A model generated the notes under the pieces. The model did no database searches, was not told the DNA's origin, and was given only the letters and a program-made list of their open reading frames with translations. A stretch of DNA of 40,160 nucleotides from Deltaproteobacteria bacterium. Lineage in GTDB: Bacteria; Myxococcota; XYA12-FULL-58-9; JABJBS01. Positions 29,987 to 39,520 of the stretch are shown one piece after another. The position numbers and the translations under genes were made by a program. Numbering within the stretch: the stretch's first letter is position 1; every line of letters starts with the position of its first letter. The stretch spans positions 1 to 40,160 of the forward strand of contig JABJBS010000262.1 in assembly GCA_018668695.1 (NCBI GenBank). Reading direction: 5' to 3'.

Positions 29987-30343
29987 TTAAGCGACACCCA
30001 GCAAGGCACCGGGTTCAGGTCTTGATTTTTTGGTATGCTGGATCAGGACGGCGCTCTTTCGGGCCGTTTCCATTTCCATGCGGACCGAGCTCATTTCAAG
30101 CTTAAGCTGGGTAAAGCCATACTCAACACGCCCGAGTGCTTCATTCAAATCCTCGGAAAATTCGCTTATCAACAACGCGCGAACCAGCGTTGGAGCGGAA
30201 TCAACCAAAAACTCAATCTCATCAATCAGTTCTTGGCGGTCCTCTAGAAACTGAGACCAATTCTCCATATTAACTTCTGAGGGAACTGGAATGGCCAGAA
30301 GACCATCCAAGATCTCTCGAAGTTCATGGCGATAATCCGTCAT
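29987..30343 (-). CDS. Small helical protein in the fliT position (possible flagellar chaperone)
   Basis: The 118-residue protein is largely alpha-helical and acidic, with a Glu/Asp-rich middle (NWSQFLEDRQELIDEIEFL) and heptad-like leucines. Its ATG overlaps the stop of fliS (TAATG). In many bacteria fliT, the chaperone of the filament cap FliD and a regulator, sits exactly here. I see no firm FliT motif, so the call rests on position, size and helical character. Confidence 0.6.
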   Translation of the reverse strand: MTDYRHELREILDGLLAIPVPSEVNMENWSQFLEDRQELIDEIEFLVDSAPTLVRALLISEFSEDLNEALGRVEYGFTQLKLEMSSVRMEMETARKSAVLIQHTKKSRPEPGALLGVA

Positions 30344-32307: not shown

Positions 32308-33138
32308 TTAACCAATCAGCGACAATGCTGATTGCGGCAACGAGTTAGCCTGAGCCAACATCGACGTTCCCGCCTGAGATAGGATTTGCGAACGTGTAAA
32401 CGCTGCTGATTCTTCAGCGACGTCGACGTCCTTGATACGAGAGTTAGCTGAAGCAGTATTTTCATGCATAATGCTCAAGTTACTCATAGTAGCTTCCAAT
32501 CGGTTTTGGGTTGCACCCAAAGTACCCCGACTGGTGTTAATTGTTTGAAGCGCGGTATCCAGAGCAGCAATTGCTTTCTGAGCACCGGTAGAGCTTGTTA
32601 ATAATTCGTCGTTAAGACCGAGCGAAGTAGAGCCACTGTTAGCAATCGAAACAGAGATTCGATCATTACCAGTGTTATTCATACCAACCTGGAAACTAAC
32701 CCCGGCGGATACGCTACCATCAACAAGCTTTTGACCATTGTATTCTGTAACATTAACGACGCGGTCGAGTTCTGACTCAAGAAATTGGAATTCTTGGTCG
32801 AGATAACCACGCTCGGTAGCATCCATGGTACCTTCGTTAGAGGCTTGCACCGCTAACTCACGCATCCGCTGAACCATACCTGTCATCTCATTCAAAGCGC
32901 CTTCAGCGGTCTGAATAAGGCTAACACCATCGTTGGCGTTACGACTGGCTTGCTTCAATCCCTGCTCTTGAGCAGTCAACTGAGAGCTAATGGCGCTGCC
33001 TGCAGCGTCATCACCAGCCTTGTTAATACGAAGTCCAGAAGACAACTTTTCGATGTGTCCTGCCATCGCTTGGGTTGTCTTGTTTAAATTTGATTGTGCA
33101 CGTAACGAAGTTACGTTGGTTACAACTGAAATTGCCAT
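32308..33138 (-). CDS. fliC: Flagellin
   Basis: The 276-residue flagellin has the conserved N-terminal D0/D1 part ([37 protein letters not shown]) and C-terminal D1/D0 part ([42 protein letters not shown]). The middle is only about 60 residues, so D2/D3 are almost absent, as in other minimal flagellins. It polymerises into the filament. AGGAG lies 7 bases before ATG 33138. Upstream are a leader of about 100 bases and a sigma-28 type promoter. Confidence 0.97.
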
Positions 33139-33249: not shown

Positions 33250-33276
33250 ACATCGTCGATGCTCTGAAGACCTTTA
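33250..33276 (-). promoter_or_regulatory. Sigma-28 (FliA) promoter of fliC
   Basis: On the minus strand TAAA (33273-33276) is followed by exactly 15 bases and then GACGATGT (33250-33257). The consensus is TAAA-N15-GCCGATAA, so the -35 is perfect and the -10 keeps its CGAT core. The start of transcription would be near 33243, giving a leader of about 105 bases. The presence of flgM nearby fits sigma-28 control. Confidence 0.7.
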
Positions 33277-33378: not shown

Positions 33379-33831
33379 TTAAACTTTCGCGATGTCGCGC
33401 AATTCGTCCTCTGCCGCATCCCACTTACCGAGGGCTACGATCAAAGTAGACTCGATAAAGGCTGCAACCTCGTCCGGAGACTCGGAGTCCACGACGACCG
33501 TTTCCAATGTACCCAGCGCATCGCCGAGGGCATTGTCAAACGCGACAACCTTTGGACCTTGAGTTCCTACTGAAGAACAAATCTGTTGAACCAAGCTTAG
33601 AAACACCTGCATATCGTTAAGAGTGGTCCACAGCATTGTGGCATCCTTATCTTTACGAATATCTGCAGCGGCCTGGCGCAAGTTGTCACACATACTGTTG
33701 ACACTTGGTTTGAGAACATTAAGGGCACCCCGCAACTTACCTTCAAGCTCTTCTAGAAGCTTTTGAATGTCAGGCTGCTTGGGGTCAACCTCGGTTTTCT
33801 GAATCTGGTTTGCTAGAGCTGAATCTGTCAC
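33379..33831 (-). CDS. Unknown 150-residue protein under a sigma-54 promoter in the flagellar cluster
   Basis: The GTG at 33831 has GGAGG 5 bases before it and gives 150 residues. The protein appears almost wholly helical. Residues about 20-35 are acidic and charged (IQKLLEELEGKLRGALNVLK) and the C-terminal part is rich in Asp/Glu (SPDEVAAFIESTL, WDAAEDELRDIAKV). There is no signal peptide and no membrane helix. I recognise no family. A near-consensus sigma-54 promoter lies 37 bases upstream, and fliC with its own promoter follows, so it is probably a single-gene unit of the flagellar regulon. A chaperone, regulator or chemotaxis-related role is possible but not shown. Confidence 0.8.
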   Translation of the reverse strand: MTDSALANQIQKTEVDPKQPDIQKLLEELEGKLRGALNVLKPSVNSMCDNLRQAAADIRKDKDATMLWTTLNDMQVFLSLVQQICSSVGTQGPKVVAFDNALGDALGTLETVVVDSESPDEVAAFIESTLIVALGKWDAAEDELRDIAKV

Positions 33832-33867
33832 AGCTACCTCCAATGATTAATTTCCTACAGATAACGT

Positions 33868-33883
33868 TGCAGCTACCGTGCCA
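33868..33883 (-). promoter_or_regulatory. Sigma-54 (RpoN) promoter
   Basis: The minus strand reads TGGCACG-GTAG-CTGCA, against the consensus TGGCACG-N4-TTGCA. The GG (-24) and GC (-12) are at the required spacing. The predicted start near 33857 leaves a leader of about 26 bases before the GTG of the unknown gene. Confidence 0.78.
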
Positions 33884-34026: not shown

Positions 34027-35469
34027 TTACGTGAGGAGGTTGGCACCTGGAACGGTTCTGTAGATCTGGTCGAGCATACCGTTGAAGCCCGCGTTCACTT
34101 CAACCCAAGCCAATTCTTTACTGCCCCGGCCATCATCAACAATCCTGCCTGTTGCAAAAGCTGTTGGGAATTCCGGCAATCTCACCTCAAAAACACCATG
34201 TAAATTGGCACCGCCAGCCTCTACGAGAGCGCTGATCCGGCCAAGCTCCTGAGTGAAAACTTCTACACTCACGTTTTCTTTTTTAAGGACCATTCTGATT
34301 CTAATCGGAACCCTGAGTTCGCCAGAGCCGGAATCCACGCCCTGCTCACTTCGTGACTGTGCGGTCGGGAAACTTAAGGTAAGTTCCGTCCCGCCCACTT
34401 CCGAGGTTCGGACATCGACATACCCTTGATGGAGATGGCAAATACGCCTCACCAAAACCAAACCAAGACCTTTTCCAACACGAACGCCGTCCGCCTTGAG
34501 GGTTACCAAGTTCGTAGTTTCGAAAAGCTGGTCTACGACCTGAGGATTAATTCCCGGACCCTCATCGGAAATACGAATCGAGCATTCTCCTCGGTCACGC
34601 GTAATCAAGAGTCGGGCACGTCCGCCCAGAGGGCTAAAGTCTGCCGCATTGAGCACTGCATTGGTTATGGCACAGCGCAGCATAGGTTCGTTCCCAATGC
34701 ACTCTATGGCTAAATCAGGGATCTGAGTCTCGAGTTCAACCTCTCGGGCACGAAAAGTCACGTCGTATTCCGCTACAATTGACCGGGCCAGCGCACAAAT
34801 ATCGACACGCTTATCACGAGGCATGTCATCCAAATCCTCACGTTCACTTACCCCTACTACGGCGCTCACCATTTCAGTCAGACGCTGACTGGCATCTTGC
34901 AATGACTCAAAGAGTTCAAGGCGCTCGGCTGGGTCTGTTGCGGATTCAAGAAAACTTAGAGAACTGTTGAATATCGTTAGAGGTCCTCTCATGTCGTGCG
35001 CAACCAACTTCAACAACTGCGGAATCGATTCGGCAGAAGCCGCAACCTGGCTTTGAGCCGCTGGAGCGGACGATTCCCCGGCAGAATCCAAGAGGCCGCG
35101 AACCGCCTCCCGCAAATCTTGAGAGCGAAACGGTTTAAGCAGGAGTAAGTTTGCTCCGGCATCTAATGCCGCTTGATGAGCCTGTGGGTCCGTTAAGGCG
35201 GTTAAGATACAAATCGGTAAATCTTTGAACCGGTCATCCGAGCGCAAACGACGGCAAACCTCAAAACCGTTGCGACGTGGCATCATCAGATCAAGCAGGA
35301 ATAAAGCCGGGCATTCTTCCTCAGCGGCCTCAAGAGCAGCCTCACCATCTTTCACCCAAGTTACCCTGAAGCGTTGCTGGTCTTCCAGCACACGCTGGAC
35401 CACATACGCGATGGTATGGTCGTCTTCGGCGAGTAATATCAATGGAAGTTCAGTAGATGCTTCAACCAT
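34027..35469 (-). CDS. Receiver-histidine kinase hybrid with extra C-terminal domain
   Basis: The 480-residue cytoplasmic protein has a receiver domain at about residues 9-125 (AEDDH acidic pair, phospho-Asp in LLDLMMP, Lys in LLLKPF). A HisKA-like helix pair follows with the phospho-His in VAHDMRGPL (about residue 158), then an ATPase domain with NAVLNAADFSP (N box), DEGPGINP (G1) and GKGLGLVLVRRI (G2). The last 100 residues are a separate beta-rich domain with RVPIR, faintly PilZ-like. There is no membrane segment. Lying between flgL and fliC, it may report on flagellar assembly or set motility. The ATG has no Shine-Dalgarno and follows a perfect 7-bp hairpin (35476-35490). No cognate regulator is next to it. 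Confidence 0.87.
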   Translation of the reverse strand: MVEASTELPLILLAEDDHTIAYVVQRVLEDQQRFRVTWVKDGEAALEAAEEECPALFLLDLMMPRRNGFEVCRRLRSDDRFKDLPICILTALTDPQAHQAALDAGANLLLLKPFRSQDLREAVRGLLDSAGESSAPAAQSQVAASAESIPQLLKLVAHDMRGPLTIFNSSLSFLESATDPAERLELFESLQDASQRLTEMVSAVVGVSEREDLDDMPRDKRVDICALARSIVAEYDVTFRAREVELETQIPDLAIECIGNEPMLRCAITNAVLNAADFSPLGGRARLLITRDRGECSIRISDEGPGINPQVVDQLFETTNLVTLKADGVRVGKGLGLVLVRRICHLHQGYVDVRTSEVGGTELTLSFPTAQSRSEQGVDSGSGELRVPIRIRMVLKKENVSVEVFTQELGRISALVEAGGANLHGVFEVRLPEFPTAFATGRIVDDGRGSKELAWVEVNAGFNGMLDQIYRTVPGANLLT

Positions 35470-35546: not shown

Positions 35547-36428
35547 TTACCGGAAACCGCTATCGAGGCTGGAAATAATCTTTTGCGCCTGAGCCAGAGC
35601 GGCCTGGAGCCCGTATTGAGTCTCGGTAAAATTGGTGAAAGCCTCATGCGGATCTGCATCCACCACGGCTGCCTTCTGCTGCAGCACGTTGGCCTCGATC
35701 TCAGTTCTTAGGTCCTTACCGGACAACACTGTTTTCAAGTTAATGCCCGCGGTGCTCTGTGCGTTTATCAATTGCTTGTGTGAATCGGCTATCGCTCCAA
35801 TGGAATCCTGAATGGCATCAGGATCATTGTTTTGCAGATTCGTTTCAAAATCACTCAAAACTGTAAAGATATTCTCACCACCAGTAGGTGAAAAAATCTC
35901 ATCGCCCGGAATGTTCATCTTAACGGTCAATCCTGGTGCAACTTCAACCGTACGTTGACCACTGTCCCCCTGGTAGACGCCGGCTGCTGTAAACGGCTCG
36001 CTGCCCGTCTTATAACCGCCAAAAACGAAACTACCCGATACCTGCGTATTGGCGAGACTCAGTAACTGTTCTTTGAGTTCGGTAACCTCGTAAGAGATGG
36101 CCATCCGGTCGCTTTCGCTTAGCGTTTCGTTGGCTGAGGAAATCATAAGCTCTTGAATTCGGCTAACGACCTGCACCGACTCAGCAATTGTCGACTCTGT
36201 TACGGAAAGCTCCTGCTCGGCAACCGATGCTACGCGGCCCATCGTATCTAAACGCGTAAGAGTCGATTCAAGCACGTTTACACGGCTTACGGCCAATGGA
36301 TCACGCGGGTCAGCAGTCCCTTCCATCGCACGTGTAGCGGCCTCTTGAGCCTGCATTTGGCGACCCTTATTGACCATGACGCTCTGGTTGAGAGCGTTGA
36401 AAATCATGTTGTCAGTAACTCGTAGCAT
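35547..36428 (-). CDS. flgL: Flagellar hook-associated protein 3 (FlgL)
   Basis: The 293-residue protein starts MLRVTDNMIFNALNQSVMVNKGRQMQAQEAATRAMEG, matching the FlgL N-terminus with the flagellin-like D0 helix, and contains QLLSLANTQVSGSFVFGGYKTGSEPF, a strong FlgL marker. The C-terminus is a flagellin-like helix (NFTETQYGLQAALAQAQKIISS). It forms the upper layer of the hook-filament junction. TAGGAG lies 8 bases before the ATG, 9 bases after flgK. Confidence 0.95.
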   Translation of the reverse strand: MLRVTDNMIFNALNQSVMVNKGRQMQAQEAATRAMEGTADPRDPLAVSRVNVLESTLTRLDTMGRVASVAEQELSVTESTIAESVQVVSRIQELMISSANETLSESDRMAISYEVTELKEQLLSLANTQVSGSFVFGGYKTGSEPFTAAGVYQGDSGQRTVEVAPGLTVKMNIPGDEIFSPTGGENIFTVLSDFETNLQNNDPDAIQDSIGAIADSHKQLINAQSTAGINLKTVLSGKDLRTEIEANVLQQKAAVVDADPHEAFTNFTETQYGLQAALAQAQKIISSLDSGFR

Positions 36429-37927: not shown

Positions 37928-38269
37928 TTAGCCGTACTGTCTTAAGAGTACCGCTTCCGCCCTACGGGAACCCAACTTAGCGTTGCCCCCGTACATCTTC
38001 TTCGTTTCGTGCCCTGGACCAGCTGTAGCGCTCATAAATGCATCCTGCATTGTGTCGCCAACAAACCTGCATATCTCTCTGAAACGGACCATGCCCGTTC
38101 TTACATGCACCAGGAATTCTTTATCCGGACTCATTTTTTGTAACTTCAGCGACCAGCCTTCAATTTCAGCCGTAACAATGTCGAGTTCAGGGCCATTAAG
38201 ACCAATGGCTGCGGCTTCTGCCCGCTCCATCAAATCATCAAATTCTGCCATTACCCGCGCCGCCGTCAT
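37928..38269 (-). CDS. Small protein in the flgN position (possible FlgK/FlgL chaperone)
   Basis: The 113-residue protein sits between flgM and flgK, the usual place of flgN, the export chaperone of FlgK and FlgL. It is helical, with charged heptads at the N-terminus (MAEFDDLMERAEAAAIGL) and a Gly-containing, basic C-terminal tail (MYGGNAKLGSRRAEAVLL) of the kind often seen in FlgN-like proteins. A direct match to FlgN motifs is not evident. AGAGGT precedes ATG 38269 by 5 bases. Confidence 0.6.
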   Translation of the reverse strand: MTAARVMAEFDDLMERAEAAAIGLNGPELDIVTAEIEGWSLKLQKMSPDKEFLVHVRTGMVRFREICRFVGDTMQDAFMSATAGPGHETKKMYGGNAKLGSRRAEAVLLRQYG

Positions 38270-38279
38270 TCGTTACCTC

Positions 38280-38603
38280 TTACTCTTCAATTCCCAAGTC
38301 ACTGTTAAGAATTGATGCTGCTAACTTTCGGGGATCCACATGGTAGTCGCCCGCCTCTATCGCCGCCTTAAGCTCTTCGAGCTTCGCCTCACTGGCCCCC
38401 ATGGGACCATCTACCCGTGAAATCTCCCGAATGGATTCAGCAAGAGAACCTAGACGCTCACTGAGCACCACGCGGTCACTCTGTCGATTAACAGATGTTC
38501 CACCGCTGCGCTGAGCACCTGCTTTTCCGCTTTTATCACCCGCCACAGCTTCGCTGCGTGCTCTTCTAGCTTTGTCTGCGGGTCCATTCTGGATTTTCAT
38601 CAT
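38280..38603 (-). CDS. flgM: Anti-sigma-28 factor FlgM
   Basis: The 107-residue protein has a disordered, basic first half and a C-terminal part fitting FlgM: DRVVLSERLGSLAESIREI, then KLEELKAAIEAGDYHVDPRKLAASIL. The last motif (V-x-x-L-K-x-x-I-x-x-G-x-Y-x-V-D-x-x-x-V-A) is the FlgM signature. FlgM holds sigma-28 inactive until it is exported through the finished hook. Two tandem ATG codons occur at 38603 and 38600; the first overlaps the flgJ stop, while the second has the better spacing to GGAGG. Confidence 0.9.
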   Translation of the reverse strand: MMKIQNGPADKARRARSEAVAGDKSGKAGAQRSGGTSVNRQSDRVVLSERLGSLAESIREISRVDGPMGASEAKLEELKAAIEAGDYHVDPRKLAASILNSDLGIEE

Positions 38604-39520
38604 TTTCCTCCGCTGGCTAGCCCCAGTCGATACTGCTTTAAACCATGTCGCTTAACTGCGCCATGGGAGCAAGGCTTTCCAGACTCGTCTTTATCTACAT
38701 CGCCCGCGTGAACATTAACTTGAGAGATATTTTCACCTTTTTGCTCAAATTCTTGTTCTTGGCCCTGCCAGCGCTTCAAATATGGCTCTGGGTCGATATA
38801 TCGGCGCTTCCCATCCACGCCATTCTCGAAAATTTCGAAGTGTAAGTGAGCTCCAGTCGAATTCGGGCCTGTATTACCAACATCACCGATATAACTACCC
38901 TTTTCGACAGAGTCACCTAATTTAAGGCCTTCGGCTACCTTATCGAGGTGCATATAACGCGTCTCGATCCCACCATTGAAGTGGGAGATTCCGACATAAA
39001 TACCACCACCAACCGATGGATCCCGGTTGATCCTGGATATCTTACCCGTGGCGGCCGCTACGATCGGAGTACCTACTTCTCGGCCTAAATCCACACCACA
39101 GTGACCATCACCGCACTCATCCGGCCTCAAACCGCTACGGTCGGCACCAAATTTTTGCCCGTTAGAGATGTTCACATCTCCCGATACCGGGAATGCCCAT
39201 TGCTCGGAACGTAGAAACTTTTCACCCCGGGTTTCCTGACCAAACATTTGATTACCGAGTTGTTCAGCCAGCATATCCGAAAGACCGAAACCATTACCCT
39301 CGGTCGACATATCAGCATATTCCTGGTCGAGCATGCTCTGGAAATTCTTACCCATCTGATTGCTTAGATAACTCGACTCCGTGGTTTTTCGCATAACCTT
39401 GAAGAGTTCGTTAACCAATAGGCCTTCGAATTCACGCGCAACTTTATCGATCTCGTCGCGCTTTGTCGGGGCATCCGGGATGTCGCGCGACTGGGGAGAT
39501 ATGGCGTCCAATAATTTCAC
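38600..39520 (-). CDS. flgJ: FlgJ rod-binding domain fused to an M23 peptidase
   Basis: Residues about 20-95 match the FlgJ rod-cap/rod-binding domain (EFEGLLVNELFKVMRKT, SMLDQEYADMSTEGNGFGLSDML). Residues about 125-250 are an M23/LytM endopeptidase with GHCGVDLGREVGTP (zinc His and Asp) and STGAHLHFEIF (His-x-His). In gamma- and betaproteobacterial FlgJ the second domain is a glucosaminidase; here a metallo-endopeptidase replaces it. It should clear a path in peptidoglycan for the rod. The last 50 residues are charged and unassigned. The start is GTG 39520, whose GTGA overlaps the end of flgI. Confidence 0.9.
   Translation of the reverse strand: MKLLDAISPQSRDIPDAPTKRDEIDKVAREFEGLLVNELFKVMRKTTESSYLSNQMGKNFQSMLDQEYADMSTEGNGFGLSDMLAEQLGNQMFGQETRGEKFLRSEQWAFPVSGDVNISNGQKFGADRSGLRPDECGDGHCGVDLGREVGTPIVAAATGKISRINRDPSVGGGIYVGISHFNGGIETRYMHLDKVAEGLKLGDSVEKGSYIGDVGNTGPNSTGAHLHFEIFENGVDGKRRYIDPEPYLKRWQGQEQEFEQKGENISQVNVHAGDVDKDESGKPCSHGAVKRHGLKQYRLGLASGGK

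Follow-up and report, generated by a model that had tools for sequence, protein, structure and literature searches.

The window, i.e., the whole stretch of 40,160 nucleotides that was analysed, belongs to a Myxococcota draft assembly (G000; 5.87 Mb, 424 contigs), and all the genomes compared with it are draft (metagenome) assemblies as well. The local order of the genes is flgI-flgJ(M23)-flgM-flgN-flgK-flgL-kinase-X-fliC-fliD-fliS-fliT-like, where X is an unnamed open reading frame (ORF) on the minus strand, extending over 150 codons from a GTG at 33831 to a stop at 33379. Its location between a kinase gene and fliC is as had been described in the first-pass annotation. The kinase gene directly upstream (34027–35469, minus strand) encodes a cytoplasmic protein with the Pfam architecture receiver-HisKA-HATPase, and a related kinase is found directly upstream of X in a second genome (G007). 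The flagellin gene fliC (32308–33138, minus strand) is recognised by PF00669/PF00700; flgL (35547–36428, minus strand), upstream of the kinase, is related to the genes in flgL position in other Myxococcota flagellar loci.

Some other products of the cluster deserve a mention. About 100 residues at the C-terminal end of the kinase (34027–34360, minus strand), past the HATPase domain, have no Pfam match and on reading resemble a PilZ-type domain, which is a candidate assignment only. The small proteins in fliT position (29987–30343, minus strand) and in flgN position (37928–38269, minus strand) match no Pfam or NCBIfam family, and they are probably divergent FliT and FlgN. In the protein in FlgJ position (38600–39520, minus strand), the rod-binding domain PF10135 is joined to an M23 peptidase (PF01551), whereas the usual partner domain of FlgJ is a glucosaminidase.

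X is a genuine gene, showing a gene-like codon-position GC pattern and having homologues in two other Myxococcota genomes. Its product contains no histidine and no evident transmembrane segment, and the charged residues are unevenly distributed, with 13 D/E versus 4 K/R in the C-terminal half and 12 versus 10 in the N-terminal half. AlphaFold2, run on three sequences, returned a confident five-helix bundle (mean pLDDT 83, pTM 0.73) with a disordered N-terminus, a long first helix (residues 22–59) and further helices at residues 65–88, 92–115, 119–134 and 137–149. The conserved positions centre on W68-x6-Q75-x-F77 and V122-A123-A124. The ORF, the charge distribution and the all-helical model thus bear out the earlier description of a soluble helical protein of 150 residues with an acidic C-terminal half. 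That annotation had also called for profile searches and structure prediction of a family that it did not recognise, and the family matched nothing known here either: scans of Pfam, NCBIfam and PHROGs gave nothing credible, the PDB sequence search returned designed helical proteins and chance matches only, and Foldseek, run with two models, found generic helical bundles and nothing below E 0.1, so that the confident model has no significant structural match. A tblastn search of plasmids gave zero matches. Neither a receiver or Hpt signature, nor a recognisable phosphatase motif, nor catalytic features were found in X, and the CheZ profile of Pfam was not matched when a CheZ-type phosphatase was looked for. 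An Hpt protein, i.e., a four-helix bundle with a phosphorylatable histidine, was ruled out because X lacks histidine altogether.

The minus-strand sequence upstream of X reads TTTGGCACGGTAGCTGCAACGTTATCTGTAGGAAATTAATCATTGGAGGTAGCT-GTG and contains a sigma-54 -24/-12 element, TGGCACG-GTAG-CTGCA (33868–33883, minus strand), whose GG and GC doublets stand at the sigma-54 spacing (TGGCACG-N4-CTGCA, GG-N10-GC). A transcription start placed 12 nt from the GC element, near 33857, would give a leader of 26 nt (33832–33857, minus strand); within it lies the Shine-Dalgarno sequence GGAGG (33841–33837, minus strand), and the homologue has an identical TGGAGGTAG just before its ATG. The correctly spaced promoter, the 26-base leader and the strong Shine-Dalgarno sequence of the first-pass annotation were all found again. 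In the 40-kb window, no site other than this element matches TGGCACGNNNNTTGCW with one mismatch or none, while two-mismatch sites are not above chance frequency; for the 195 nt separating X from the kinase gene, dinucleotide shuffling produced an equally good site in 5 of 20,000 cases. Over the whole genome, the pattern has 82 matches, and the reversed control has 37. A perfect copy stands before a glutamine synthetase gene and a one-mismatch copy, read by eye, before a pilin-like gene; since glutamine synthetase and pilin are classic sigma-54 targets, the pattern is meaningful in this genome, and the excess of sites together with the perfect copy indicates that sigma-54 is in use in it. The contig carrying the glutamine synthetase gene (C78; L095:833–1966, perfect site TGGCACGGTGGTTGCT) also ends in a flagellin fragment. 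An inverted-repeat enhancer was searched for upstream of X and was not found. As far as the sequence can tell, the promoter looks real, and X appears to be transcribed from it.

The flagellin gene has a promoter of its own, of the sigma-28 type, as had been claimed: TAAAG-N16-CGATG (TAAAGGTC-N11-GACGATGT; 33250–33276, minus strand), 138 nt before fliC. The strict enterobacterial sigma-28 consensus missed this site, which the looser TAAAG-N16-CGAT form found, and the motif also precedes other flagellins of the same genome and of its order. X appears to be transcribed separately from the sigma-28-driven fliC and, by the usual order in such hierarchies, would be transcribed before it. Another contig of the same genome (C11; L093:1537–8802) carries, by sequence reading, a second flagellin gene followed by a very large protein, by one in which Hpt-like segments are repeated, and by a fusion of a receiver with a CheX-like domain.

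A clear homologue of X was disclosed in G007 (Myxococcota RA.bin128), a member of another family within the same order, in which it is the single strong hit (25% identity over 114 aa; BLASTP E 8e-11 in a single comparison). The genes are arranged in the order flgH-flgI-flgJ-flgM-flgN-flgK-flgL-HK-RRHK-HDOD-HK-X, so that four signalling genes lie between flgL and X, the last one encoding a histidine kinase. Of the six kinases compared, this one and that of the window match each other best: the former scores 87 bits against the window kinase and at most 46 against the two other kinases of its own cluster, and the latter has its best match at 87 bits and the next at 85. The homologue is preceded by its own sigma-54 site, TTGGCAC-N5-TTGCA (TGGCACCCTGGTTGCA), and by a Shine-Dalgarno sequence; the upstream sequence reads TTGGCACCCTGGTTGCA, then TGGAGGTAGGT-ATG. 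The Shine-Dalgarno context is nearly the same in the two genomes (TGGAGGTAGGT-ATG versus TGGAGGTAGCT-GTG in the window), the distance from promoter to gene is similar, and 17 of 20,000 shuffles gave an equally good promoter. At the level of sequence, this second promoter is an independent evolutionary test of the predicted X promoter, and the test was passed. The next gene has its GTG start directly behind the stop of X and, from its first 480 bases read by eye, a glycosyltransferase-like beginning. The fliC gene lies on another contig, which opens with a sulfotransferase and two glycosyltransferases ahead of it; the link between X and fliC in this genome spans two unjoined contigs (C59 and C127).

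A weaker relative is harboured by a third genome, G033 (profile E 5e-4 per genome; hhalign 88%). In the search back from it, X of the window was the only hit in G000 (E 0.01), and when folded alone it shows the same order of helices as X. It is located away from flgL and fliC, directly following a HATPase-receiver gene whose promoter matches sigma-54 (9 of 20,000 shuffles equally good), and it is followed by a gene for a PilT-type ATPase (T2SSE). The HATPase-receiver gene is divergent from a CTP_transf_3 cytidylyltransferase (CMP-sugar-synthetase-like) gene with a perfect sigma-54 site. For each of the three promoters (X, G007 and G033), the shuffles put chance below 1e-3.

The distribution of X is narrow. 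It was found in 3 of the 195 Myxococcota genomes, that of the window included, versus flagellin in 49 (cut-off E 1e-6). When the profile search was widened to 384 genomes, other phyla among them, it retrieved only the same three and chance hits, one of which lay inside a flgL reading frame; weak hits in G152, G186, G058 and L018, in giant or overlapping ORFs, were taken as noise. In G001, belonging to the same order, X is absent, and flgL and fliC are direct neighbours with nothing between them. It follows from these counts and this adjacency that X is optional and lineage-specific. Within a family of three sequences, one of which is weak, the linkage to a kinase and to sigma-54 holds in three of three cases and the flagellar neighbourhood in two genomes. 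The first-pass annotation had proposed a missing flagellar or motility factor: its position in the flagellar cluster, with flgL and a histidine kinase gene ahead of it, is indeed conserved, but the idea of a general factor is wrong, given 3 versus 49 genomes. The survey of co-occurrence with fliC, which it had suggested, showed flagellin in all three carriers, although the most constant partner of X is the kinase gene and not fliC.

Elsewhere in G000 (contig C261), a gene for a receiver-AAA-Fis sigma-54 activator (receiver-PF00158-HTH_8) is located directly before an operon consisting of a TPR gene followed by flgB-flgC-fliE-fliF. Between them lies a one-mismatch site, TGGCACGCATCCTGCT, which shares its CTGC variant with the X promoter but whose own predicted start would leave almost no leader. 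The activator and this site fit the earlier statement that sigma-54 controls the middle flagellar genes. In G002, of the same order, a homologous activator gene is divergent from a PAS-kinase/receiver-kinase/HDOD trio, the same HK-RRHK-HDOD trio that precedes the kinase-X pair in G007; in some members of the order at least, the kinases near X thus belong to the circuit of the flagellar activator.

Taken together, these results make X a probable regulator or helper of the flagellum that is specific to its lineage. With a probability of roughly 0.4, we read it, from gene order and promoters, as a middle-class sigma-54 gene of the flagellar locus whose product acts at the hook-to-filament stage as a partner in the kinase/activator circuit. 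An NtrC-type flagellar activator would drive X from the sigma-54 promoter, so that it would be expressed before, or as, fliC is switched on from its sigma-28 promoter. The protein would then pair with the cytoplasmic kinase as a small helical-bundle partner (an adaptor, an inhibitor or a phosphatase-like modulator) and adjust the circuit at this step, i.e., the sigma-54-made X might exert feedback on the kinase driving the next stage, or pass information to it. The biochemical step is a guess, since X has no histidine, receiver/Hpt signature or phosphatase motif; the cooperation with the kinase is deduced from gene linkage, which may reflect shared regulation only, and the three X-linked kinases differ in architecture. 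The further step of seeing in X the founder of a new family, in which kinase partners made under sigma-54 would link the kinase/activator circuit to the completed hook-filament junction (flgL) and so form a lineage-specific assembly checkpoint distinct from FlgM and FliW-CsrA, appears to us a rather long shot.

Other explanations have to be weighed. A small protein with an acidic C-terminal half and an all-helical model with a long first helix, encoded between flgL and fliC and with a sigma-54 timing ahead of flagellin, would also suit a chaperone for export, or a secreted helper, that serves a filament-stage substrate (flagellin, a HAP or some cap-like protein) and is built as a helical bundle without sequence relationship to FliS, FliT and FlgN. 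Nevertheless, the window already encodes FliS as well as small FliT-position and FlgN-position proteins, hhalign gives X only 0.1–1.1% against the Myxococcota FliS, FliT-like and FlgN-like sets, no structural match was found, and the gene of G033 lies away from flgL and fliC; Pfam alone is not decisive in this respect, since it misses the FliT-like and FlgN-like proteins of the window itself. We hold the chaperone to be possible, though doubtful. The sugar-related genes met in the other two carriers, i.e., the glycosyltransferase-like gene after X and the sulfotransferase and glycosyltransferases of the fliC contig in G007, and the divergent cytidylyltransferase gene with its perfect sigma-54 site in G033, might instead point to an accessory protein of a flagellin or surface glycosylation operon. 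This is unlikely, as no sugar gene adjoins X in the window, the two contigs of G007 are unjoined and X has no catalytic features.

The absence of X from most flagellated Myxococcota, G001 with its adjacent flgL and fliC among them, and the PilT-type ATPase gene after the G033 relative would be in agreement with an unrelated passenger, driven by sigma-54 and stable in its place, with no role in motility. Such a passenger is quite improbable in the light of the shared flagellar location and promoter, which persist in two families of the order at only 25% identity, and of the flagellin found in all three carriers when only 49 of 195 genomes have it. Finally, the reversed control implies that about 37 of the 82 genome-wide matches are expected anyway, so that the promoter match, or the ORF itself, might be due to chance; the independent homologue with an equivalent promoter at a similar distance and with the same Shine-Dalgarno context, as well as the gene-like codon pattern of X, largely refute this.

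The partnership with the kinase/activator circuit, which we prefer, recalls known systems in part. NtrC-type activators of sigma-54 middle flagellar genes are FlgR/FlgS in Campylobacter and Helicobacter, FlrB/FlrC in Vibrio and FleS/FleR in Pseudomonas. The locus shares with them the sigma-54 promoter in the flagellar cluster, sigma-28 for flagellin, a receiver-AAA-Fis activator beside the flgB-fliF operon and cytoplasmic histidine kinases nearby; it differs from them in that the X-adjacent kinase has an N-terminal receiver and sits in the flgL-fliC interval. We know of no counterpart of X in these systems. Like FliS, FliT and FlgN, X is small, soluble, helical and encoded in a late flagellar cluster, but it has no sequence, profile or structural similarity to them, and such genes are separately present. 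X is a new, narrow family inside a circuit of a familiar kind. Flagella and cell-surface polysaccharides are commonly under sigma-54 control (PMC3162934, PMC12316311), and no description of gene X was found in either paper.

To our knowledge, the way in which flagella are regulated in Myxococcota other than the model gliding species has hardly been explored. For these Myxococcota, the locus reveals a hierarchy of sigma-54 and sigma-28 that includes a flagellar activator gene, together with an undescribed family of proteins linked to this hierarchy through a conserved promoter and a kinase. Should X modulate the kinase, it would count as a new component of a checkpoint; otherwise, it at least identifies the variable flgL-fliC interval as a site at which different lineages insert regulators.

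The usual regulator in this interval is FliW (with CsrA), which occupies it in other Myxococcota. X shares this location, but it is all-helical and does not match PF02623. The idea that X simply replaces FliW was rejected since the four genomes searched within the order all lack FliW, with or without X, and G033 has both. Judging from its occupants (kinase, cyclase, FliW/CsrA, X), the interval seems to be a variable slot for regulators. In ten other loci of flagellated Myxococcota (L067, L068, L069, L071, L072, L073, L075, L078, L080 and L082), it contains an unrecognised gene of about 650–760 aa. In three further loci of flagellated Myxococcota (L059:4778–6937, L066:6378–9161 and L061:6306–9242), a class-I adenylate cyclase lies between flgL and fliC, with PF12633 and PF01295 at E 1e-36 to 1e-47 in the two tested and the signature seen by eye in L061; this might possibly represent a direct cAMP link to flagellar assembly.
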